Under the pieces are notes generated by a model that ran no database searches, was not told the origin of the DNA, and was given only the letters and a program-made list of their open reading frames with translations. Below are positions 8,377 to 28,566 of a DNA stretch of 32,344 nucleotides, one piece after another (the stretch's first letter is position 1; every line of letters begins with the position of its first letter). This DNA comes from Paludibacteraceae bacterium (lineage in GTDB: Bacteria > Bacteroidota > Bacteroidia > Bacteroidales > Paludibacteraceae), in the NCBI GenBank assembly GCA_024401455.1, contig JAKSLA010000034.1:1-32344 (forward strand), in the 5' to 3' direction. Position numbers and translations under genes: made by a program.

Positions 8377-9153
8377 ATGATATTCTATTTCTCGGCTACA
8401 GGAAATTCTAAGTGGGTTGCCTCTCAGTTGGCAGACATATTGGGCGAAACGCTTGTGTCTATCAATGATGCGTTGAAAAATGGGCTGACAGACTGCCATT
8501 ATGAAATGTCGGATGATGAACGTATCGGTTTTGTATTCCCTGTTCATTCGTGGGGCGTGCCGAGTCTTGTGCTTCAATTCATCAAGAAAATGGAGATCAA
8601 AGGCTATGATGCCCATCAGATTTTCGCCGTATGTACATGTGGTGATGACGCAGGTTATACCAATTCCATCTTAAAGAATGCGTTGAAAAAGAGAGGTTTG
8701 GTTCTTAATCAGTGCTATACGGTTCAAATGCCGAACACTTATATTGTATTGCCTTTCTTCGACGTAGATAGCGAAGAGGTTGAAAACGACAAATTGGAAG
8801 AGGCTTCGCAACGAATCAAACGTATATCTCAGGAAATTGTAGAAGGAACGGGCAATAAGTTGCTCTATCACAAAGGCGCGCTACCCTTCTTGAAAACGCG
8901 CCTCATCTACCCTATTTTCAAAAAATGTACGAAGGGAAAAACTAAATTCCACGTTTCGGAGCGTTGTACTCGTTGTGGTCTCTGCAAGGAGATTTGCCCT
9001 ACTCTCAACATCAAAACTTCCAATGGTTTACCTCAATGGGGCGACCGTTGCGTGCAATGTTTGGCTTGCATCCATCATTGCCCGGTCAAAGCCATAGATT
9101 ACGGAAAGATAACGGTCAAGAAGGGACGTTATCATTTTAAAAAGAAAAAGTGA
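8377..9153 (+). CDS. EFR1-family flavodoxin/ferredoxin fusion
   Basis: Encodes 258 residues. The N-terminal flavodoxin-like domain has the FMN phosphate loop FSATGNS at residues 5-11 and continues to about residue 160. The C-terminus has two 4Fe-4S clusters: CxxCxxCxxxC at Cys197, 200, 203, 207 and again at Cys225, 228, 231, 235, each followed by Pro or a closely spaced CP. This arrangement defines the EFR1 family of predicted electron-transfer proteins, widespread in anaerobic Bacteroidota and Clostridia, with no assigned partner. The presence of two oxygen-sensitive clusters supports an anaerobic lifestyle. It follows ispE by 30 bp. IspG and IspH of the same pathway need low-potential electrons, so a link with ispE is conceivable, but that is my inference. 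Confidence 0.92.
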   Translation: MIFYFSATGNSKWVASQLADILGETLVSINDALKNGLTDCHYEMSDDERIGFVFPVHSWGVPSLVLQFIKKMEIKGYDAHQIFAVCTCGDDAGYTNSILKNALKKRGLVLNQCYTVQMPNTYIVLPFFDVDSEEVENDKLEEASQRIKRISQEIVEGTGNKLLYHKGALPFLKTRLIYPIFKKCTKGKTKFHVSERCTRCGLCKEICPTLNIKTSNGLPQWGDRCVQCLACIHHCPVKAIDYGKITVKKGRYHFKKKK

Positions 9154-9171
9154 GGATGGAAAATAAAAAGA

Positions 9172-9222
9172 AATGCTTCAAAATGTAATATCTGATTTTT
9201 TTAACCTACATTTTGAAGCATT
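9172..9222. terminator. long inverted repeat, first of two terminators between convergent genes
   Basis: Perfect 16-bp arms AATGCTTCAAAATGTA (9172-9187) and TACATTTTGAAGCATT (9207-9222) around a 19-nt loop containing a T-run. It starts 18 bp after the EFR1 stop codon. The stem is long for a simple terminator, and the low G+C content makes it moderately stable. Confidence 0.55.
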
Positions 9223-9233
9223 CGAGAAAAAAA

Positions 9234-9274
9234 AGCCGTTTCGGAGTTTTTTGTATTAAGAACTTGAAACGGCT
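9234..9274 (+). terminator. intrinsic terminator, bidirectional
   Basis: Nine-bp arms AGCCGTTTC (9234-9242) and GAAACGGCT (9266-9274), followed by CTTTTT on the plus strand and by a run of T on the minus strand (A-run 9227-9233). It can end both ispE-EFR1 transcription and transcription of the ADP-ribosylglycohydrolase gene. Confidence 0.75.
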
Positions 9275-9321
9275 CTTTTTATAGAATTTCTCAAATTCCC
9301 ATCTTTGTTTGTTGCAACATT

Positions 9322-10092
9322 CTATCCCACCACATCAAACTTCTTTACAAACGCATTGATGATGGTTTTCAGATCGTCGGAAGCGGTGTCGTAGGCGGCT
9401 TTCCAAAGTTTTTCGGGAACGCCCCAGCGTGCACCTGCCATTGCACCGGCTATGGCTCCGTTGGTGTCGGTGTCGCCTCCACAAAGGATGGTGTTTCTAA
9501 GTGTATCTGCGTAAGACGTGCCATAAACAACCTCTTGGATGCAAAGCGGTACTGTGTTTTGGCAAATGGAATTGAACTCGCTGAACGGCTTCTCGAATGT
9601 TTCCCATTCTGGATAATATTCGGTCATCAGTTTTTTGAATCCCTCCATGTCGTTTTTAAAGTGACGGAGAAACCAAACGGCATGAGCGGTGGCTTGGGCA
9701 CCTTTGATTCCTTCCGGATGATTATGAGTGCAAGCGGCAGACTTTTCTGCCTCGGCCAGCATCACATCCTCCTTCTCGAACGCCCATCCTACGGCACTGA
9801 CACGCATGGCAGATCCATTTCCGCATGAATTGTATGGCTTCGGGTGTTCGGATAAAATCCAATTGAAAAAGCCAGATCCGTAAGCACCCATAGGATATCG
9901 GTGCTTCCTACACAATTCTTGCAAAGCTTCTTCGTAAGGTATGCCTCGAAGTATGGCGTCTGCAATCGCTATCGTGCAGATGGAATCGTCCGTTATCTCC
10001 TTGCAGTTTTCCACTAAAGGGAAATTTGGGTCCCTTGTATTGTCAAATTCATAAATAGAACCGATGTAATCTCCTGTTAATGCTCCAATCAT
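9322..10092 (-). CDS. ADP-ribosylglycohydrolase family protein
   Basis: Encodes 256 residues, a single DraG/ARH-type domain. These enzymes use two Mg or Mn ions to remove ADP-ribose from protein side chains, DNA bases or small molecules. The metal motifs are visible: ITDDS with Asp35 and Asp36 (usually TDDT; Ser here is a conservative change) and GGDTDTNGAIAGA with Asp207 and Asp209. CGNGSAMR (90-97) and HNHPEG (123-128) are also family hallmarks. The start is at the first Met, directly before the conserved GALTGDYIGS. The gene follows the M48 peptidase gene after 40 bp on the same strand and is likely co-transcribed. No ADP-ribosyltransferase is visible in the window, so the substrate is open. 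Confidence 0.92.
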   Translation of the reverse strand: MIGALTGDYIGSIYEFDNTRDPNFPLVENCKEITDDSICTIAIADAILRGIPYEEALQELCRKHRYPMGAYGSGFFNWILSEHPKPYNSCGNGSAMRVSAVGWAFEKEDVMLAEAEKSAACTHNHPEGIKGAQATAHAVWFLRHFKNDMEGFKKLMTEYYPEWETFEKPFSEFNSICQNTVPLCIQEVVYGTSYADTLRNTILCGGDTDTNGAIAGAMAGARWGVPEKLWKAAYDTASDDLKTIINAFVKKFDVVG

Positions 10093-10132
10093 ACTATTTC
10101 TTTTCTGTTAGGATTAATAATAAAGATAGAGT

Positions 10133-11353
10133 TTAGCAAATGTCGTAGATGCTTGGGATGAACTTGGCTTGAATCTCGTTGGCGATGATCTGCGCTATTT
10201 GCAATTCGCTGAACTTTAACGCATTGCCTATCTCATAAACGAAGTCAATCTCCTTTTGGTCGATGCTGCTGTCTGACATCACGATGTCGATCACGTAGTT
10301 GAGCATAGACTCTTTTAGACTTGGGTCGAGTCGCTCAATGTTGATGATAGCCTCGTTGCATGTCTCCAATACATTCCCCTTGACAATTTCGTCGAGGTAT
10401 TTTTGAGGAAACATGGTATGGTAAGATAGATTGTCGATGATCTCTTCAATCTCCTCATCTGTGATGTTTTCGTTGGCACTGGCCGCCATAATTCCGGCCG
10501 ATGCGATGAAGTTGGCTATGTGTTTGCTGATTTCTCCACTGCCTATTCTCAACAGAATGGAGGTCAATTCGTCCATTCCTTTGTTAAGATCCTCTTTGTT
10601 GGTGGAATTGGCATAAAGGTTGAGCGCCTGCACACGTATAGGGTTGACAGGGTGCGATTCACGGCTGAGACCTTGTTCGCTCAAGAAATAGTCCAATCGT
10701 TTGCTATTGTCGGCTATCAGCGTGTCGATGCTCACATTCATCTTCACCAAGTCGAGTCCGGAACTCATTTTATAGAAAGCAGAGACGCATACGCCCAAAT
10801 CTTCGCAAGCCAAATAACCATAGCGGTCGGCCACCAATTCAGCCAATTGGCTGTGGAGAATGATTTTATAGTTGAGCGAGATCGGAATTTTGGAACCTCC
10901 AGGGAATACGAAACTGGTTAGTTTCATAAGCGAGGAATCCTTATTGATGAGGTGTCCGAGTTCGTGCCCGATGACGAACTTCAACTCTTCGGTTGTCATC
11001 AAGTTGAACAGCGCCGAATTGATGTTGACGATGCTTGGCTCTTTTTTGTTGTCGGAAGCGACAGAGAAGGCATTCACTTCGCTATTTCCCGTGATATAGA
11101 AATCAACCTTTTCTGTGACTCCCAGTTTCGTCTTTACCTCTTGACAAAGTTCATAGAAGTCGGGTAAAAGGTCTTTTTCCACCTTCATGCTTGAACCTTC
11201 CATAAGGTTGCGCCAATATAGGTCCTCCTCTGTTTGGCTGATTTTCTTCAAGATCTCTTTGACGATGGGACCTTGAATCGCATGGAAAATTTGCTCTCTT
11301 ATTTGTTTCTCCATCTCAATGGATGGGTCAAACTTATATATCTTTTTTGTCAT
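10133..11353 (-). CDS. M48-family zinc metallopeptidase with TerB-like C-terminal region
   Basis: Encodes 406 residues. Residues of about 70-250 are a peptidase M48 domain: the zinc motif IGHELGHLIN gives His130, Glu131 and His134, AELVADRYG gives the third ligand Glu172, and HPVNPIRVQAL is the usual M48 motif after it. Unlike HtpX or Ste24, no transmembrane helices flank the domain, so the protein should be soluble and cytosolic. From about residue 265 to the end the sequence is helical and acidic (NENITDEEIEEIIDNL, SDSSIDQKEIDFVYEIGNAL), resembling a tellurite-resistance TerB-like domain, which may bind metal or partners. The gene precedes the ADP-ribosylglycohydrolase gene by 40 bp. The peptidase call is firm; the TerB-like call rests on pattern only. 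Confidence 0.88.
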   Translation of the reverse strand: MTKKIYKFDPSIEMEKQIREQIFHAIQGPIVKEILKKISQTEEDLYWRNLMEGSSMKVEKDLLPDFYELCQEVKTKLGVTEKVDFYITGNSEVNAFSVASDNKKEPSIVNINSALFNLMTTEELKFVIGHELGHLINKDSSLMKLTSFVFPGGSKIPISLNYKIILHSQLAELVADRYGYLACEDLGVCVSAFYKMSSGLDLVKMNVSIDTLIADNSKRLDYFLSEQGLSRESHPVNPIRVQALNLYANSTNKEDLNKGMDELTSILLRIGSGEISKHIANFIASAGIMAASANENITDEEIEEIIDNLSYHTMFPQKYLDEIVKGNVLETCNEAIINIERLDPSLKESMLNYVIDIVMSDSSIDQKEIDFVYEIGNALKFSELQIAQIIANEIQAKFIPSIYDIC

Positions 11354-22349: not shown

Positions 22350-23198
22350 TTAAATAGCATAGAATGCCTTAATCTCATCCATCTTTTGTTTGGCTGCTTC
22401 CCTACCCATGGCATAGACATGACGCATTTTCGTTTCGTTTTGTTCCGTCCTTCCGATGGGGAGTTCGTCTTCTGGATAGATGAGTAAGGTGTTGCCTAAC
22501 TGTTCCTGTTCGGAGATGTAATCCAATTCGCGGTTGTACATAATATGGCGCACCGCCATTGCTTCTGCCACTTTGGGCGTTTTGCGGAGCAGGAATTTTA
22601 GGATAGGCATAATCTTAGGCTGCGTCTTCTTGAAGCCTTTAGGCTGCGTTAAAACGACGATGTTGCGGTCGTAGCCTTGGCTTTGGAAATACTGTAAAGG
22701 GATGGAATCGGCCATGCCTCCGTCCAACAGGCGATAACCGCCTATGCAGACCGGTTTGGATAGGCAAGGCAAAGATGCCGAAGCACGCAACCATTCAATC
22801 TCTTCATATTCAAACTTCTCCAACCTTCGATAGACCGCCTTGCCCGTATCAACATCCGTGCAGACAATGTGAAAATCTATCGGACTGGCGGCAAAAGTCT
22901 CCTTGTCGAATACGTCCAACTCCTTGGGCATATAGTGGTAACTGAATGGACCGTTGACCAAATCGCCAGTCTGAATGAGCGATTTAAGCCCCATATAGCG
23001 AGGGTCGTCTTTGAACCGAATGTTGTATCTCAGTACGCGTCCCGGCTGGTTGGATTTGTAGTTGCAGCCAAACGTGGCTCCTGCAGAGACGCCAACAACG
23101 CCATCGGGCTGGATGCCGTTCTCCATCATCTCGTCCATGATTCCTGCCGTGAAAAGTCCGCGCATTCCACCTCCTTCTAAGACTAATCCTTTTTTCAT
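22350..23198 (-). CDS. patatin-like phospholipase
   Basis: Encodes 282 residues. Patatins are acyl hydrolases with a Ser-Asp dyad. The oxyanion loop GGGMRG is at residues 9-14, the nucleophile elbow GVSAG gives Ser38, and LLDGGMADSIP gives Asp159 in the DGG motif. No signal peptide or membrane segment is seen, so it likely acts in the cytosol or at the inner membrane face. The family here (with the opening KKGLVLEGGGMRGLFTAGI) matches the bacterial YjjU-type group, which probably hydrolyses phospholipids or acyl esters. It is the first gene of a probable two-gene transcript with the DUF4349 lipoprotein and has a textbook promoter 27 bp upstream. Confidence 0.93.
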   Translation of the reverse strand: MKKGLVLEGGGMRGLFTAGIMDEMMENGIQPDGVVGVSAGATFGCNYKSNQPGRVLRYNIRFKDDPRYMGLKSLIQTGDLVNGPFSYHYMPKELDVFDKETFAASPIDFHIVCTDVDTGKAVYRRLEKFEYEEIEWLRASASLPCLSKPVCIGGYRLLDGGMADSIPLQYFQSQGYDRNIVVLTQPKGFKKTQPKIMPILKFLLRKTPKVAEAMAVRHIMYNRELDYISEQEQLGNTLLIYPEDELPIGRTEQNETKMRHVYAMGREAAKQKMDEIKAFYAI

Positions 23199-23224
23199 GC
23201 TATATAGTTCGATTTTTGAATATG

Positions 23225-23255
23225 CAAATATAAAAAATCCACTAAAAGAAACAAA
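23225..23255 (-). promoter_or_regulatory. consensus Bacteroidota promoter of the patatin gene
   Basis: On the minus strand TTTG (23252-23255), exactly 19 bp, then TATATTTG (23225-23232), a perfect match to the Bacteroidota primary sigma pattern TTTG-N19-TAnnTTTG. Transcription should begin a few bases past the -7 box, leaving a leader of about 20 nt before the ATG at 23198. Confidence 0.8.
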
Positions 23256-23557
23256 ACATAAAACCTATGTCTCGAATGTGTAGGAAATAAGACTTGTATT
23301 TACCCAATTCTTTGTTCATAATCGGAATAGTGCGATGTTTGAAATATGGAGAGAAGGGTAGTTTGGCAATGGAGAGGCCATCAGCAGAGAAGGGCCCCCG
23401 ACCATTTGCCATAGAAAGAATCGAATCAAAGTCGAGTAAGAAATTGATATTTAATAGATAATATCTCCTTTAATGAAGTAGTTTGTCTTTATGCAATAGG
23501 GACAATTGACTTTGATGTGTATTCAAAAAACAATTTACAATGATAACGTTATTTATA
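23256..23557. other. intergenic stretch without recognisable gene
   Basis: About 300 bp between the patatin promoter and the stop of the AAA+ operon. I see no gene, strong hairpin or repeat; a G/C-rich spot (AAGGGCCCCC around 23391) stands out in A+T-rich sequence but forms no clear stem. The operon upstream has no evident intrinsic terminator here. Confidence 0.5.
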
Positions 23558-24982
23558 TCAGTCGTTTGTGGTTGTACAATTTTCTCTTGAAGTTTGAACC
23601 TCGGTGTTTGTTTTTGATTCAATAATCTCTTTTCGCATATTATCTACCTCTTCAAGTTTTGAATAAACATAATCCATAATCTCTTCCCTCTCTTCTTGTG
23701 TTTTGTCTTCAAGTAAAGATTGGATTCTACCTTTGGCCTCTTCTGTAGTTTTGGGTTTGAGTGCGTTGAGAATCTTTTCTTCTTTTTCGCGAGTCTCTTC
23801 TCTTTTTAAATTCTCCGACATTTCCTTTTGACGCCTGAATGCTGATTGGAAATCTTCAAAAGTGAAAATTGCAGATTCCCCACAATCATTTGCTTTTCGT
23901 TGAGCCATGTCGATGAAACAGTTTTTTATTTCACGACCAGACATGCCGTCTGCAATTTCGGACAATTCAGAAAGTTGGTCCTCTGTCAATGGAGCGTCAA
24001 TAGGCATTTTTGAAGGCGTTTTTTTCTTGATAATGTCTATTCGAGCTGCCTTGTTGGGCAATTCGAACTTAAGACTTTTAAGAATACGGCTCTTGAACGC
24101 AGGATCGAATGTGGTGACAAGATTGGTTGCCATAATCACTATTCCGTTATGTTGTTCGAGGTGTTTCAGAGTTTCACTTCTTAATGAGTTAATAGCTTGC
24201 TCTGCTCCATTAGATGCGTTATTCATACGTTTCCCCATAACAGAGTCTGCTTCATCAAAAAATAAAACGCAGTCCTCCTCCTTTGCCCGTTCGAACACCT
24301 TTTTCATGTTCTTAGGTGCATCTCCAACAAACTTTGATTCAATGTCACCATAGTTGGCTTCCATGATTTTTTTCCCAATGGAAGAGGCAAGAGCATGGGC
24401 AGCCATTGTTTTCCCTGTTCCTGGTGGACCGTAAAAATTGAGTACACACTTCGGTATTGGATCAACATCAAGAAAGCCCCAATCCTCGTAAATTAGTTTT
24501 TGGTATTTTACTGTGTTGATAGCCGCTTTCATTTCAGTTAGCAATTCTTCGGGAAGCACCATTTGCTCCAAAGTATAAATTGGGGCTTTTGCCAAGAATG
24601 GTGAGGTCTTTTCGTCGTAGTCAGTACTCTCTTCTGAGGATTTTGTTCCATCTAAAGGCTTGGATTTGGCTGAAAAGGAAATTTGCACTACCAAAAGTGC
24701 TTTGTTGTTTAAAATAGAGACCAAAATTTCCTTTTGTTCCTCCAAATACATAGAAGCCTCAGCTTGAAAGTCTCTGCTCCTATCAATGGAATAGGAGGCA
24801 TTACACACTAATGCGTAAACCTTGTCATTGATAGTCGGTTGGACAATTCTCATAGAAATGCCTAACTTTAGGTGCAAGAATCTTGGCTCGTTGGCAAGTT
24901 TTTGCATTTCAGCATCGAAATCTTCCTCGAACTTTGCAAAAAAATCTTGTGCCTCCTTAGAAATTGCTACTTCGTATTTCAT
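23558..24982 (-). CDS. AAA+ ATPase of the classical (Cdc48/Vps4-like) type, last gene of a five-gene operon
   Basis: Encodes 474 residues from ATG 24982. The frame is open to 25081, but that would overlap the preceding gene; 24982 starts 2 bp after its stop. Residues 1-105 are an unassigned alpha/beta domain, 106-135 a polar linker. Residues 136-410 form one classical AAA module: Walker A GPPGTGKT (185-192), Walker B VLFFDEAD (239-246), sensor-1 MATN (Asn287), a candidate Arg finger at Arg299 in AFKSRI, and a helical lid ending near FQSAFRRQKEMSE. The last 65 residues are charged helix. Such ATPases unfold or remodel proteins. No protease domain is fused, so it is a remodeller or works with a separate partner. 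The membrane-anchored small proteins encoded just upstream are the obvious candidates. Confidence 0.9.
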   Translation of the reverse strand: MKYEVAISKEAQDFFAKFEEDFDAEMQKLANEPRFLHLKLGISMRIVQPTINDKVYALVCNASYSIDRSRDFQAEASMYLEEQKEILVSILNNKALLVVQISFSAKSKPLDGTKSSEESTDYDEKTSPFLAKAPIYTLEQMVLPEELLTEMKAAINTVKYQKLIYEDWGFLDVDPIPKCVLNFYGPPGTGKTMAAHALASSIGKKIMEANYGDIESKFVGDAPKNMKKVFERAKEEDCVLFFDEADSVMGKRMNNASNGAEQAINSLRSETLKHLEQHNGIVIMATNLVTTFDPAFKSRILKSLKFELPNKAARIDIIKKKTPSKMPIDAPLTEDQLSELSEIADGMSGREIKNCFIDMAQRKANDCGESAIFTFEDFQSAFRRQKEMSENLKREETREKEEKILNALKPKTTEEAKGRIQSLLEDKTQEEREEIMDYVYSKLEEVDNMRKEIIESKTNTEVQTSRENCTTTND

Positions 24983-24984
24983 TC

Positions 24985-25296
24985 TTAACAATCTAAATAA
25001 ATTTCTTTTCCGACATAAACAGAATCGGGACATCTTTTTACTTCTACTGGCAATGTTCCCTTTTGTTCTTTTTTTGCCCAAAGACCCAAATCAAGATGAT
25101 AACTTCCTTTGGTAAATTCTTTTTTGGCAACTTTGAGCTTGTCTGCTTCTGGACATTGCTTTTTAGCATCTTTTTTTACTTTTTCTTCGTCCCACCCTGC
25201 TAATTTAATTAGAGTGAATGTGATAAGTGGCGAAACTGCAGCTCCTAACAAAGCAGCACCTATTAATGGCAATAATGGAATAATTAAAAATGTCAT
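24985..25296 (-). CDS. small membrane protein of the AAA+ operon, function unknown
   Basis: Encodes 103 residues. A long hydrophobic N-terminal segment (about residues 2-33; FLIIPLLPLIGAALLGAAV then SPLITFTLIKLAG) can form one long or two short membrane helices, followed by a soluble part of about 70 residues with three cysteines (48, 89, 103, the last being the C-terminal residue) and many lysines. No known family is recognised. The 67-bp gap before it is the only sizeable gap in the operon; its stop is 2 bp from the AAA+ start, implying translational coupling with the ATPase. Coding is supported by the exact fit between neighbours and by the membrane segment. Confidence 0.72.
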   Translation of the reverse strand: MTFLIIPLLPLIGAALLGAAVSPLITFTLIKLAGWDEEKVKKDAKKQCPEADKLKVAKKEFTKGSYHLDLGLWAKKEQKGTLPVEVKRCPDSVYVGKEIYLDC

Positions 25297-25363
25297 AACT
25301 TATGTAGGTTATAAATTAATTTAAATGAATTGTTTTATAATTAAAATTGATACAATATTGGTT

Positions 25364-25810
25364 TTAACTTAATGTAACAATTCCATTTTCAGACTTTTCA
25401 AACATCTTTTCTATTGTTTCTCCTAATGTTTGATATTCAATGAGTAGCATGTTCTCCACCATCTCGCTTTGTTCGTTGTAGGTGGCTAGTAGTAATACAT
25501 TTTCTGAATTCTCAATCGAAAGGTCTGGGGTGATTTTTGCTATGGCTGAAGCTTTTGCAATAAAAGGAGTGTCCTCCCCTTGTTTGATTTTACCCATTAG
25601 GCCTTTGAAATAAACGACAATGTCATTCATTTCGACTATTTCTTTCGAATCCTTGGGGATGGCATCGGTATCTATTCCACTGAAATCAATGTCATTCTCA
25701 CTTTTAGGAGCATTCTCACATTCTCCTTGCTTTTGTTTTTTCATCCATAATATTGCTAAGGCACTTGCAAGTGCTGTACCTATGGTAATCAGTATAATAT
25801 TTGCACCCAT
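25364..25810 (-). CDS. membrane-anchored small protein of the AAA+ operon, paralogue of the next gene upstream
   Basis: Encodes 148 residues. A single N-terminal membrane helix (about 4-23, ILITIGTALASALAILW) precedes MKKQKQ, suggesting the bulk is in the cytosol. After a polar acidic linker comes a C-terminal domain of about 75 residues: QGEDTPFIAK, then LLLATYNEQSEMVEN, and at the very end NGIVTLS. The protein encoded at 25816-26175 has QGRDTPFIAK, EATYNENTEEVEN and NGIVTLS in the same order, so the two are tandem paralogues with different N-termini. No known family is recognised. The start is 5 bp after the upstream stop. Confidence 0.75.
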   Translation of the reverse strand: MGANIILITIGTALASALAILWMKKQKQGECENAPKSENDIDFSGIDTDAIPKDSKEIVEMNDIVVYFKGLMGKIKQGEDTPFIAKASAIAKITPDLSIENSENVLLLATYNEQSEMVENMLLIEYQTLGETIEKMFEKSENGIVTLS

Positions 25811-25815
25811 GTTGA

Positions 25816-26175
25816 TTAACTTAATGTAACGATACCATTTTTTGAACGGCTCAAAGCATCCTCTGTTTGAGCATCAAGTTGACCTTCTACAACCACTATA
25901 TTTTCTACTTCTTCCGTGTTTTCATTGTAGGTGGCCTCAAAGATACCTGCATTAAAATTTGGAGCCTCATGAATCATTCTTTTCAATGTTTCATTCTTAG
26001 CAATGAATGGAGTGTCTCGGCCTTGTTGCAGTTTCCCTGAATTAACTAGTTTTTGGAAGTGGCCAACCACTTCTTTATAAAAACTGATGATAATCCTTGC
26101 TATTTTCTTAATGCTACTCCAAAATGAACGTGCTACGTTCTTTAGAAAATCCCAAATCCCATTTAAATATGCCAT
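25816..26175 (-). CDS. small protein of the AAA+ operon with amphipathic N-terminus, paralogous C-terminal domain
   Basis: Encodes 119 residues. The N-terminal 45 residues are a basic/aromatic amphipathic helix (WDFLKNVARSFWSSIKKIAR, then IIISFYKEVVGHF) that could lie on a membrane. Residues of about 50-119 form the domain shared with the 148-residue protein: GRDTPFIAK, ATYNENTEEVEN, and the identical last seven residues NGIVTLS. The two copies also share nearly identical DNA at their ends (TTACATTAAGTTAA), so the duplication may be recent or constrained. No named family is recognised. The start lies 2 bp after the stop of the preceding gene. Confidence 0.75.
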   Translation of the reverse strand: MAYLNGIWDFLKNVARSFWSSIKKIARIIISFYKEVVGHFQKLVNSGKLQQGRDTPFIAKNETLKRMIHEAPNFNAGIFEATYNENTEEVENIVVVEGQLDAQTEDALSRSKNGIVTLS

Positions 26176-26177
26176 GT

Positions 26178-26588
26178 CTATCTAATAATTATTAATTTGC
26201 CGAATTCTGTTGCTGTTGCTGTTGAGAACATCTCTTTTACATCTTTTTTTACTCCGTCTGAAACTTTAAGAATAACAAACGTGTTCTCTTTTTCATCTAC
26301 GAGTTCTTGGTCTTTTACTGATGCAAGATAGAAGATGTCAGTGTCACTTGTCCCCTTCTTGTAAATAACCGCCATACCATTGGCTCCTGTCGCTGCATTT
26401 TGTCGAATGAAGTCAAAAAGCATGTCCTTTGTCAATGTGTCGCTAATTTCTTCTTCAACAACATTGGGATTGGAGTCGGGAAAAAGTTTGTCTATCCCTT
26501 CTGAGAACTTGTCCCATTCTTTTTCAGCCATACTAATCCAATTTAAAATCTTTGGCCCCCAATCTAATACTTTTGGATTTATAACCAT
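26178..26588 (-). CDS. first gene of the AAA+ operon, small soluble protein, function unknown
   Basis: Encodes 136 residues. The N-terminus (residues 1-35; VLDWGPKILNWISMAEKEWD) is an amphipathic helix rich in Trp, with no signal peptide. After an acidic linker, residues of about 50-136 read as strand, strand, helix, strand (GMAVIYKK, DIFYLASVKD, TFVILKVSDGVKKDVKEMF, GKLIIIR). The order and the closing short strand resemble the C-terminal domain of the next two proteins, but sequence identity is low and homology is not proved. It is the promoter-proximal gene; I see no exact TAnnTTTG box upstream. An imperfect inverted repeat (AGACGT 26642-26647 / ACGTCT 26678-26683) lies in the presumed leader. 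Confidence 0.72.
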   Translation of the reverse strand: MVINPKVLDWGPKILNWISMAEKEWDKFSEGIDKLFPDSNPNVVEEEISDTLTKDMLFDFIRQNAATGANGMAVIYKKGTSDTDIFYLASVKDQELVDEKENTFVILKVSDGVKKDVKEMFSTATATEFGKLIIIR

Positions 26589-27188
26589 TTTAGTAGTTTT
26601 TTTTATCCACCTTCTCTCTTTGTGGAATTATAATAAATAACAGACGTGAGAGAATGATGTATTAATTTATACAACATACGTCTCTTGTGATTTTTTTTCA
26701 CACAACTACAAAAAAGAAGTGTTACCTTTTTTTGAAGAGTCATCCCGTTCCTTATGGCGAGGAAAGAATTTTTCCCGTTGGGGCTTTTTCAAACCTTATA
26801 GGCAATAAAAAAACATGGGATTGACCCGTTCTTGATTATCAAACTCGGGCTCGGCAAAGCCTATTCTGTAAAATCAAGACAACGAGAAAATCCCACGCAT
26901 AAGTATATAAATCCATCCGCGAAGCCATCCCTCATTAGGGATAGCTACACGGCGGATAATGATACATTATCCGTGACATTACCGTCACTTGCTTCTTGAC
27001 AGAATTACAAATTTTGCCGATTTGAGTTTGCAAAAAGCAAAGCGAGTAAACGCCTAAAATATGTCCGACAAATCCTTAATGGAGTGTTTCCGTTGTAGAA
27101 TATGTCTTTGGCAAATATAGCGGAATATTTATATTTGTCCAATAGTTGTACTGTGATTTTTTGAACAAATCAAAGTATCTAAAGCCTT
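26589..27188. other. 600-bp gene-free stretch with nested inverted repeats
   Basis: No convincing gene on either strand. It contains the presumed promoter and leader of the AAA+ operon at one end and, at 26816-26988, a chain of inverted repeats listed separately. The segment 27000-27188 shows nothing definite. A reading frame crossing it on the minus strand from 27591 is a shadow of the coiled-coil gene and has unlikely composition. Confidence 0.6.
26816..26988. ncRNA. candidate structured RNA or mobile-element remnant
   Basis: Four stem-loops follow one another. Stem A: TGGGATT (26816-26822) with AATCCCA (26889-26895), enclosing CTTGATT / AATCAAG and an inner GGCT / AGCC. Stem B: ATCCGC (26915-26920) with GCGGAT (26952-26957), enclosing AGC / GCT and ATCCC / GGGAT. 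Stem C: CGGATAATG-ATA-CATTATCCG (26953-26973), which shares bases with stem B and so would compete with it. Stem D: GTGAC-ATTACC-GTCAC (26973-26988). Layered helices with mutually exclusive partners suit a regulatory RNA; A/T-rich mobile-element DNA could also carry them. Strand and transcription are unknown, and I cannot match it to a named RNA family. Confidence 0.4.
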
Positions 27189-27443
27189 TCATCGGCTGTT
27201 CGCCTTCTCTCGGGCCATGGAGGCTTGAAGGGTGGCGATTTGCGACTTGAGGAGGGCAATGCGGCTGTCGTAAGTGGCCATTGCTGTGGCTAACATTTGG
27301 CGTTGAGAGGCTCGCATGTTGGCTGGCATGTTTTGAATTTGAGCTTGGCGGGTTGTCTTGTTCGCCCTCTTTTCTGCTTGAAGCATTGCCAGTTGGGCTT
27401 TCAACTGCGCAATCTGTGTTTTGTAAAAATCGGTTTGTGCCAT
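27189..27443 (-). CDS. small coiled-coil protein
   Basis: Encodes 84 residues from the ATG at 27443 (MAQTDFYKTQIAQLKAQ). The frame is open further upstream, but that part (MIRRNDIFLRN...) is not protein-like and overlaps A-rich spacer. The sequence is two predicted helices with regular hydrophobic spacing (QIAQLKAQLAMLQAEKRA and YDSRIALLKSQIATLQASMA) around a short linker with NMPANMRASQ, which suggests a helical hairpin or a dimeric coiled coil. No known family is recognised; Gln/Ala/Lys-rich composition makes similarity searches hard. It stands alone between the gene-free stretch and panB on the same strand. Coding is plausible rather than certain. Confidence 0.6.
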   Translation of the reverse strand: MAQTDFYKTQIAQLKAQLAMLQAEKRANKTTRQAQIQNMPANMRASQRQMLATAMATYDSRIALLKSQIATLQASMAREKANSR

Positions 27444-27610
27444 AGTCGTATCTTTTAATGGGGCGAATGTAGGATTTTTTTGCAAAAAAACATAGGAATG
27501 GAGAAAAATCGAAAGGAAGGTGTTTCTCAAGAAGATGTCGTTTCGTCGTATCATCTATGATGAAATGGGATGGCATAAAACTTGTAAGCATAAAAGATGT
27601 ATTCTATTGG

Positions 27611-27633
27611 CATCGAAAAAAGCTTTTTCGATG
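27611..27633. terminator. hairpin with A/T-rich perfect stem
   Basis: Perfect 10-bp arms CATCGAAAAA (27611-27620) and TTTTTCGATG (27624-27633) with loop AGC. It lies past the panB stop on the minus strand. No T-tract follows the stem on either side, so it may be a weak terminator or a protein-binding palindrome. Confidence 0.4.
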
Positions 27634-27688
27634 TTTATAAAGAAGAAAAATAGAATTAGTTATTAATTCTCTGGCAGGTCTATAACCA

Positions 27689-27722
27689 ACAACGCCACCA
27701 AGATTGCTCTTGATGGCGTTGT
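27689..27722 (-). terminator. hairpin after panB
   Basis: Nine-bp arms ACAACGCCA (27689-27697) and TGGCGTTGT (27714-27722). On the minus strand the interior adds AAGA / TCTT around GCAA, giving a GNRA-like tetraloop. It starts 25 bp beyond the panB stop. No T-tract follows, so it is probably a 3'-end stabilising or weakly terminating stem. Confidence 0.5.
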
Positions 27723-27747
27723 CCTATAAATCAGTTGTTTTGTTCAA

Positions 27748-28566
27748 TCAATACGACTCGTTTTCGTTCGGGAAATCGCCCGATTTGACGTCCGTGATGT
27801 AGGATTGCACGGCATTGGTGATTACCTCGTGCAAATCTGCGTAACGGCGAAGGAACTTGGGCGAGAAGCCCTTGTTGATGCCCAACATGTCGTGCATTAC
27901 CAATACTTGTCCGTCGCAGCCATTGCCCGCACCGATACCGATGGTCGGAATGGTGAGCGCCTTGGAAACCTCGGTGGCCAACTTGGCTGGAATCTTCTCC
28001 AACACGATGGCGTAGCACCCCGCCTTCTCCAACAATTTGGCGTCGTTGATGAGTTTTTGTGCCTCTGCGTCGTCTTTGGCTCTCAATGCGTAAGAACCGT
28101 ATTTGTTGATGGATTGTGGCATTAGACCCAAGTGACCCATGACTGGTACACCCGCGTCGATGATCTTCTTGATGGTTCCGATAAACTCTTCACCTCCTTC
28201 GATCTTTACAGAGTCTGCTCCCGACTCTTTCAGGATACGGATGGCAGAACGGACTCCTTCCGCCTCATCACATTGATAACTACCAAAAGGCATATCAACC
28301 ACTACGTGGGCACGCTTAACGCCTCTGACTACGCACTGCGCATGGTAGATGAGTTGGTCAAGTGTGACAGGAATGGTGGATGAAAAACCAGACATGACGT
28401 TGCCGGCAGAGTCTCCTACAAGGATGACGTCCATGCCTGCTTGGTCGATTATAGATGCCATGGAATAGTCGTATGCCGTAAGCATTGAGACTTTCTCTCC
28501 ATTAGCTTTCATAACTGCCAACGAATTGGCTGACACTTTCTTAATAGTTTCGTTATGTACTGACAT
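27748..28566 (-). CDS. panB: 3-methyl-2-oxobutanoate hydroxymethyltransferase
   Basis: Encodes 272 residues, the normal length. PanB transfers a hydroxymethyl group from 5,10-methylene-tetrahydrofolate to alpha-ketoisovalerate to give ketopantoate, the first committed step of pantothenate and coenzyme A synthesis. Recognisable segments: [10 protein letters not shown] (residues 28-37), [11 protein letters not shown] with metal ligand Asp52 and Ser53, [10 protein letters not shown] with Asp91, [20 protein letters not shown], the catalytic Glu190 in VLEKIP, and [19 protein letters not shown]. The enzyme acts in the cytosol as a decamer in known members. No other pan gene is adjacent, so it is expressed alone from the promoter box at 28614. 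Confidence 0.97.

Follow-up and report, generated by a model that had tools for sequence, protein, structure and literature searches.

The cassette described here, five minus-strand genes of a Paludibacteraceae bacterium, may encode a membrane-tethered ATPase that remodels assemblies of small proteins, a reading to which we give a probability of about 45%, and it is probably a protective accessory module. The window, that is, the whole stretch of 32,344 nucleotides that was analysed, is an entire contig of the 3.27 Mb draft genome. Four genes for small proteins are followed by the ATPase gene, with gaps of 2, 5, 67 and 2 bp between successive genes 1-5, and these coordinates agreed with an initial annotation made from the sequence. 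Three paralogues that differ mainly in their membrane contact, together with one ATPase, suggested an assembly at the inner membrane that is built or taken apart by the ATPase. The rarity of the cassette, its insertion and its occurrence across lineages made a protective accessory role seem likelier than a housekeeping one; the purpose itself, protection against phage or envelope damage, is the weakest element of the reading.

Small proteins and ATPase of the cassette

The four small proteins have different N-termini. Gene 1 (26178..26588, minus strand; 136 residues) starts with a hydrophilic amphipathic segment, gene 2 (25816..26175, minus; 119 residues) with strongly amphipathic helices, gene 3 (25364..25810, minus; 148 residues) with a transmembrane-like helix, and gene 4 (24985..25296, minus; 103 residues) with a hydrophobic segment followed by a small C-terminal domain. 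The one membrane helix, one long hydrophobic N-terminus and two amphipathic ones listed in the initial annotation were thus confirmed. The C-terminal domains of genes 1, 2 and 3 were homologous in profile-profile comparison with hhalign (P 82-99.5), and by this comparison the three genes, gene 3 being a paralogue of gene 2, are paralogues that carry one small α/β domain behind different N-termini. The four proteins had been treated as unrelated in the initial annotation; genes 1-3 share this domain and one C-terminal strand. The AlphaFold2 model of gene 2 showed the α/β domain with a predicted local distance difference test score (pLDDT) of 79.9.

The shared domain closes with a hydrophobic strand plus one polar residue. 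The tail of gene 1 (26181..26195, minus) consists of four hydrophobic residues and one polar residue, that of gene 2 (25819..25833, minus) forms the final strand of the modelled domain, and that of gene 3 lies at 25367..25381 (minus). Each tail position was hydrophobic in 79-90% of 96 profile hits, gene-4-type hits included. The tail statistics covered 16 cassettes, L043 being the one left out of the 17 used in an earlier comparison. Small paralogues of this kind could also form a filament or a surface structure, with the ATPase as assembly chaperone, a role known from gas vesicles and injection machines; such a polymer or organelle builder was considered quite unlikely.

Gene 5 (23558..24982, minus; 474 residues, ATG start) matched the Pfam AAA family with E=7.1e-30; the list of open reading frames (ORFs) also holds a TTG-started alternative of 507 residues that overlaps gene 4. 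Walker A occupies residues 185-192 (24407..24430, minus; from sequence and alignment), Walker B is D243 E244, sensor 1 is N287, and the Arg after sensor 1 is R299. The motif residues were invariant, and T192 nearly so, in 23 aligned rows, the window included, which bore out the motifs and the candidate Arg finger proposed earlier. With Walker A, Walker B, sensor 1, the conserved Arg after it and the AAA fold, gene 5 is by its sequence a classical AAA ATPase, for which a hexamer is predicted. It contains a single AAA core and matched no protease in library and VIA searches. Its N-domain (residues 1-107; 24662..24982, minus) was confidently folded in the model (pLDDT block means 75-97) as an α/β domain with strands E38-47, E56-60 and E96-105, and is poorly conserved. 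No convincing match was found for this domain among PDB sequences (best 0.32), none with the C-domains of the small proteins by hhalign (probability <1), and none in the search of the ATPase model, which was made by VIA only and barely covered the N-domain. In the record of one isolate (L029 8914-10155), an in-frame stop within the N-domain divides the ATPase frame into two ORFs (8914-9123 and 9139-10155).

Comparison of the window with genome G098 showed amino-acid identities of 53-71% for all five frames. The nonsynonymous divergence (dN) was 0.22-0.40 for the five genes, whereas synonymous sites were saturated (synonymous divergence, dS, 2.5-4.3 or not computable) and 55-62% of third codon positions differed. 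Between these two genomes the five genes are, from the codon pattern, under purifying selection. The low dN with saturated dS, together with the order conserved elsewhere, implied that the five ORFs are more than chance.

In the proposed mechanism, the products of genes 1-3 would be three versions of one small domain, each held at the inner membrane in a different way, and the product of gene 4 would be a fourth, hydrophobic partner. On the membrane, the small proteins would form an assembly to which a hexamer of the ATPase would be recruited, via its N-domain or via the C-terminal strand of the small proteins. Upon damage or invasion, the ATPase would pull on the assembly or disassemble it. 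C-terminal motifs serve as handles for several AAA machines, and the tail may be such a handle for this ATPase. If this is true, the cassette is a small, portable membrane-remodelling system present in several phyla, with a built-in internal comparison in the form of three paralogues that differ mainly in membrane contact.

Distribution and gene order of the cassette

When 300 genomes of the family were searched with the protein of gene 2, the cassette was found in 6, counting the own genome, and in each of the other five all five genes are present with their order unchanged. Profile searches found it in none of 394 sampled other genomes of the phylum. This distribution bears on a role in envelope quality control, in which the small proteins would serve as adaptors for an ATPase that extracts misfolded membrane proteins, as in p97 with its adaptors. 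The classical AAA core without a protease match and the presence of several partners of adaptor size are in line with such a role, yet a cassette so rare in its family and phylum, and located in an inserted stretch, can hardly be housekeeping, and we regard quality control as quite unlikely.

Beyond the family, a scan of genome contigs with the ATPase alignment gave at least 471 relatives, of which the best 80 were kept. Iterated profiles were then applied to the ORFs of 148 loci, and small-protein genes were recognised in 31 of them, the distant members depending on iteration, which can drift. The order 1-2-3-4-ATPase was present in 15 loci (the window, L018-L022, L024-L029, L033, L039 and L043). 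Rearranged sets occurred in a Metabacillus mangrovi isolate (L032; 4-1-2-3-ATPase, with gene 4 called by eye), a Spirochaetales metagenome-assembled genome (MAG) (L037; 4-ATPase-1-2-3) and a Desulfovibrio MAG (L035; three gene-4-like ORFs, the ATPase, 1 and 2). Two or three small genes were found in isolates of Paractinoplanes, two Streptomyces and Yinghuangia (L046, L054, L066, L079) and in a Synergistaceae MAG (L044). The spread over phyla is represented by isolates for Bacteroidota, Bacillota and Actinomycetota and by MAGs for the remainder. Locus L025 (Lachnospiraceae MAG; contig of 4.2 kb) carries an ATPase that groups among Prevotella-type rows; it was not relied on for this spread because it is possibly mis-binned. 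In three loci, an extra small gene of 72-95 residues, one family by eye, stands directly before gene 1 (L024 7279-7497, L028 186-404, L029 7119-7406).

Of the 87 related ATPases in the tree, 31 are accompanied by small-protein genes that lie no more than 4.5 kb away on the same strand. A FastTree branch with support 91 separated 30 of 37 ATPases with small genes on one side from 1 of 50 on the other, and the small-gene label required 8 changes on the tree against a shuffle mean of ~25.5. The root was placed at the midpoint, so the status of the cassette side as a clade depends on rooting. The profile database and the tree were made without L001-L017 and L023, which are hit fragments, and without L031, which lies on the same contig as L019; of 63 viral loci, 61 were excluded from the tree and two, L104 and L105, were retained. 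Among the seven cassette-side ATPases without small genes, three sit at a contig edge (L030, L042 and L049), and the one in L040 is preceded by three small ORFs, unscored, whose starts are hydrophobic. The sole small-gene hit across the branch, L088, is probably a chance amphipathic match. In the wider family, ATPases in L053, L065, L070 and L055 and on plasmid p11801_2 of Synechococcus elongatus PCC 11801 (L189) are preceded by two or three small proteins, unmatched by the profiles in the first four, several of which start hydrophobic or amphipathic.

An accidental neighbourhood of the five genes deserves almost no credence, as unrelated genomes keep the order and it goes with one side of the ATPase tree. 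The proposal in the initial annotation that an ATPase is provided with dedicated small hydrophobic or amphipathic partners was upheld by the conservation of the set in unrelated genomes, and the same gene order was found in the five other family genomes and beyond.

Inserted stretch and neighbouring genes

The cassette lies in a stretch of ~4.5 kb (23281..27746) that is absent from three other genomes of the genus, its borders being approximate since they are the ends of BLAST homology. The matches of the patatin-like gene and panB are 211 to 269 bp apart in these genomes and 4.55 kb apart in the window; homology to G036 is lost near 23280 and begins again near 27757 (27747 in the comparison with G062). 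In addition to the five genes, the stretch contains an ORF of 121 residues (27189-27554) and non-coding DNA. A non-coding repeat of ~255 bp (26807..27061) has a single 76% copy elsewhere in the own genome (G000:C93, L186 1854-2111), and no copy was found in the three relatives that lack the stretch; it is possibly a mobile or regulatory repeat. Rfam gave no match at the gathering threshold in 23000-28000, which covers the gene-free stretch and the repeat. Between panB and the five genes, a 15-bp inverted repeat (27689-27722; 93%, with a 4-nt loop) has the look of a terminator and was not among the calls of a terminator scan.

The cassette appears to be mobile and to move horizontally. One copy, in the viral contig L104, lies beside phage-recombination-like genes and a serine recombinase (by eye). 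The ATPase relatives in phage and plasmid records all had <60% identity and none reached 80% query coverage, the Lactobacillus plasmid region with an ATPase relative contained no such cassette, and a viral scan with gene 2 relatives gave 390 pattern matches, of which none was confirmed. Rarity, insertion between two genes adjacent in three other genomes and the copy beside phage-like genes together supported the earlier view of an accessory module.

For the flanks, 137 of 186 ORFs (18 loci) were scanned; four actinobacterial loci, with 37 ORFs together, were excluded entirely, as were 12 ORFs of L035, L041 and L043. The commonest Pfam family was Dynamin_N, in 5 of the 137 proteins. In L030, the cassette-side ATPase is succeeded by two genes for dynamin-like GTPases; the first, LeoA-like (7.8e-14), starts after 1 bp and the second reaches the contig end, while the region upstream of the ATPase also falls outside the contig. 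In L019/L031, dynamin-like genes are found downstream of the cassette, at ~0.8 kb and beyond, and two precede the ATPase in L052, a Fibrobacter locus from the opposite side of the tree. A different contig of the own genome (L187, G000:C64, 6873-12845) carries three dynamin-like GTPase genes in a row, two of which, consecutive, are related to the L030 pair (30% over 755 and 43% over 433 residues). As background, PF00350 matches (1-12 at E <= 0.001) were found in 20 of 21 genomes, the own one included, and strong ones (best E < 1e-10) in 4 of 21. The association with dynamin-like GTPases is a lead, drawn from counts; if the remodelling reading holds, it would link classical AAA ATPases with dynamin-like GTPases in bacteria.

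Other neighbours were also observed. In the extended cassettes L022, L048, L051 and L064, two large proteins are encoded upstream (the first one of L051 was read from the ORF list); the downstream protein of L022 has a zincin-like motif, its counterparts in L048, L051 and L064 look alike by eye, and L048 also includes a radical SAM protein (3.9e-10). DUF1232-like small proteins stand beside the cassette in L025 (243-527) and L026 (5696-6088) by motif search, and Pfam DUF1232 was found in 2 of the 137 flanking proteins. On the other side of the tree, in L045, L052, L090 and L091, the ATPase is followed by a protein of 414-430 residues with an amphipathic-looking start and then by one of 457-713 residues.

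Several results weigh against the reading of a membrane-tethered remodelling ATPase. Gene 4 was not grouped with genes 1-3 by hhalign (probability 0.1-7); it was drawn in by iterated hidden Markov models, possibly through drift, and the tails of genes 2 and 4 showed no likeness. The likeness of tails within a locus is not specific to them, since an upstream control block behaves alike, and the tail, which in the model is itself part of the sheet as its last strand, may be structural instead of a docking signal. Three of the 37 cassette-side ATPases (L036, L038 and L062) have no recognised small partners nearby, and dynamin-like genes were found by motif within ~6.5 kb in 2 of 31 cassette loci, L019 and L041. 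The PADLOC families in the flanks were scattered, none occurring in more than 3 of the 137 proteins, a count made without a control set.

The last result gives no defence enrichment and thus also speaks against a membrane-acting toxin, in which a trigger would cause at least one of the small proteins to depolarise the membrane and the ATPase would hold them apart or extract them until infection, as in abortive infection. The transmembrane-like or amphipathic N-termini fit a toxin, as do the rare, inserted cassette, its copy beside phage-like genes and the closest PADLOC model of the ATPase, which is the defence ATPase IetA. However, three paralogues and a fourth hydrophobic protein kept across distant lineages exceed what a toxin needs, and the portion that genes 1-3 conserve is the C-terminal domain, not the membrane segment. 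A toxin therefore seemed unlikely, and we prefer the remodelling of small-protein assemblies.

Comparison with known systems

Searches of the five proteins against Pfam, NCBIfam, PADLOC and PHROGs gave firm matches for the ATPase only. For the four small proteins, Pfam and NCBIfam gave nothing above cut-off, and PADLOC 2.0.0 nothing at E <= 1. Weak similarities to a phage internal head protein (2.5e-4) and a capsid model (6.5e-4), both below cut-off, and to tape-measure proteins were set aside as apparent helix similarity. PDB sequence searches gave nothing convincing (best 0.0076 for A6 and 0.028 for A4), and the gene 2 model had no clear PDB fold match by Foldseek and VIA. A description of the cassette was not found in literature titles and abstract starts, a coverage that excludes preprints and subscription journals. 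The statement that the operon matches no described system stood in the searched libraries, and the small proteins left blank there are now grouped into one set.

The best defence-library match of the window ATPase was IetA of the ietAS system (PADLOC PDLC02196; NCBIfam NF042959), with 1.3e-34. Its partner IetS is a serine protease. The window ATPase scored 102.1 bits against an NCBIfam IetA cut-off of 510, and the small proteins matched no protease family above cut-off, the only peptidase row being gene 2 to a beta-aspartyl-peptidase (12.5 bits, cut-off 567); the search for IetS was confined to the four small genes. Identity with ietAS was ruled out by the score far under cut-off and the lack of a serine protease among the small genes.

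The cassette also differs from the PAN and 26S proteasome ATPases, p97 and NVL, as it has no proteasome partner, a single AAA core and an N-domain that is unmatched, though barely covered in the search. Dynamin-like GTPases of the LeoA/LeoBC type are present beside the L030 ATPase and not beside the window cassette. In the sister operon L090, the product encoded after a related ATPase from the other side of the tree looks amphipathic at its start (by eye); then come a gene of 517 residues that matches ZorA (1.5e-11) and one of 223 residues that matches ZorB (8.6e-22); no small-protein genes of the present family were found there, and this operon is a possible Zorya-like system with an AAA ATPase.

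Snf7 and PspA are helical hairpins, and MIT is a helical bundle. The gene 2 product, the only small protein modelled, is in contrast an α/β domain, the small proteins had no Pfam match to ESCRT-III or PspA/Snf7 families at E <= 1, and the N-domain of the window ATPase, unlike that of Vps4, is α/β in the model and has no Pfam MIT match. Vps4/ESCRT-III and bacterial PspA/Snf7 proteins with AAA partners (PMC11237479) were taken as the comparison system. The cassette may work in a Vps4-like manner, yet it was not assigned to that system because its partners are unlike Snf7/PspA and its N-domain is not MIT-like. It could be, although we hold this doubtful, a counterpart of ESCRT-III/Vps4 in logic and not in descent: an unnamed family of small membrane-bound α/β proteins, three or four with distinct anchors, whose C-terminal strand would be gripped by a dedicated AAA ATPase, joined in some lineages by a pair of dynamin-like GTPases, and moving between phyla for defence or repair.

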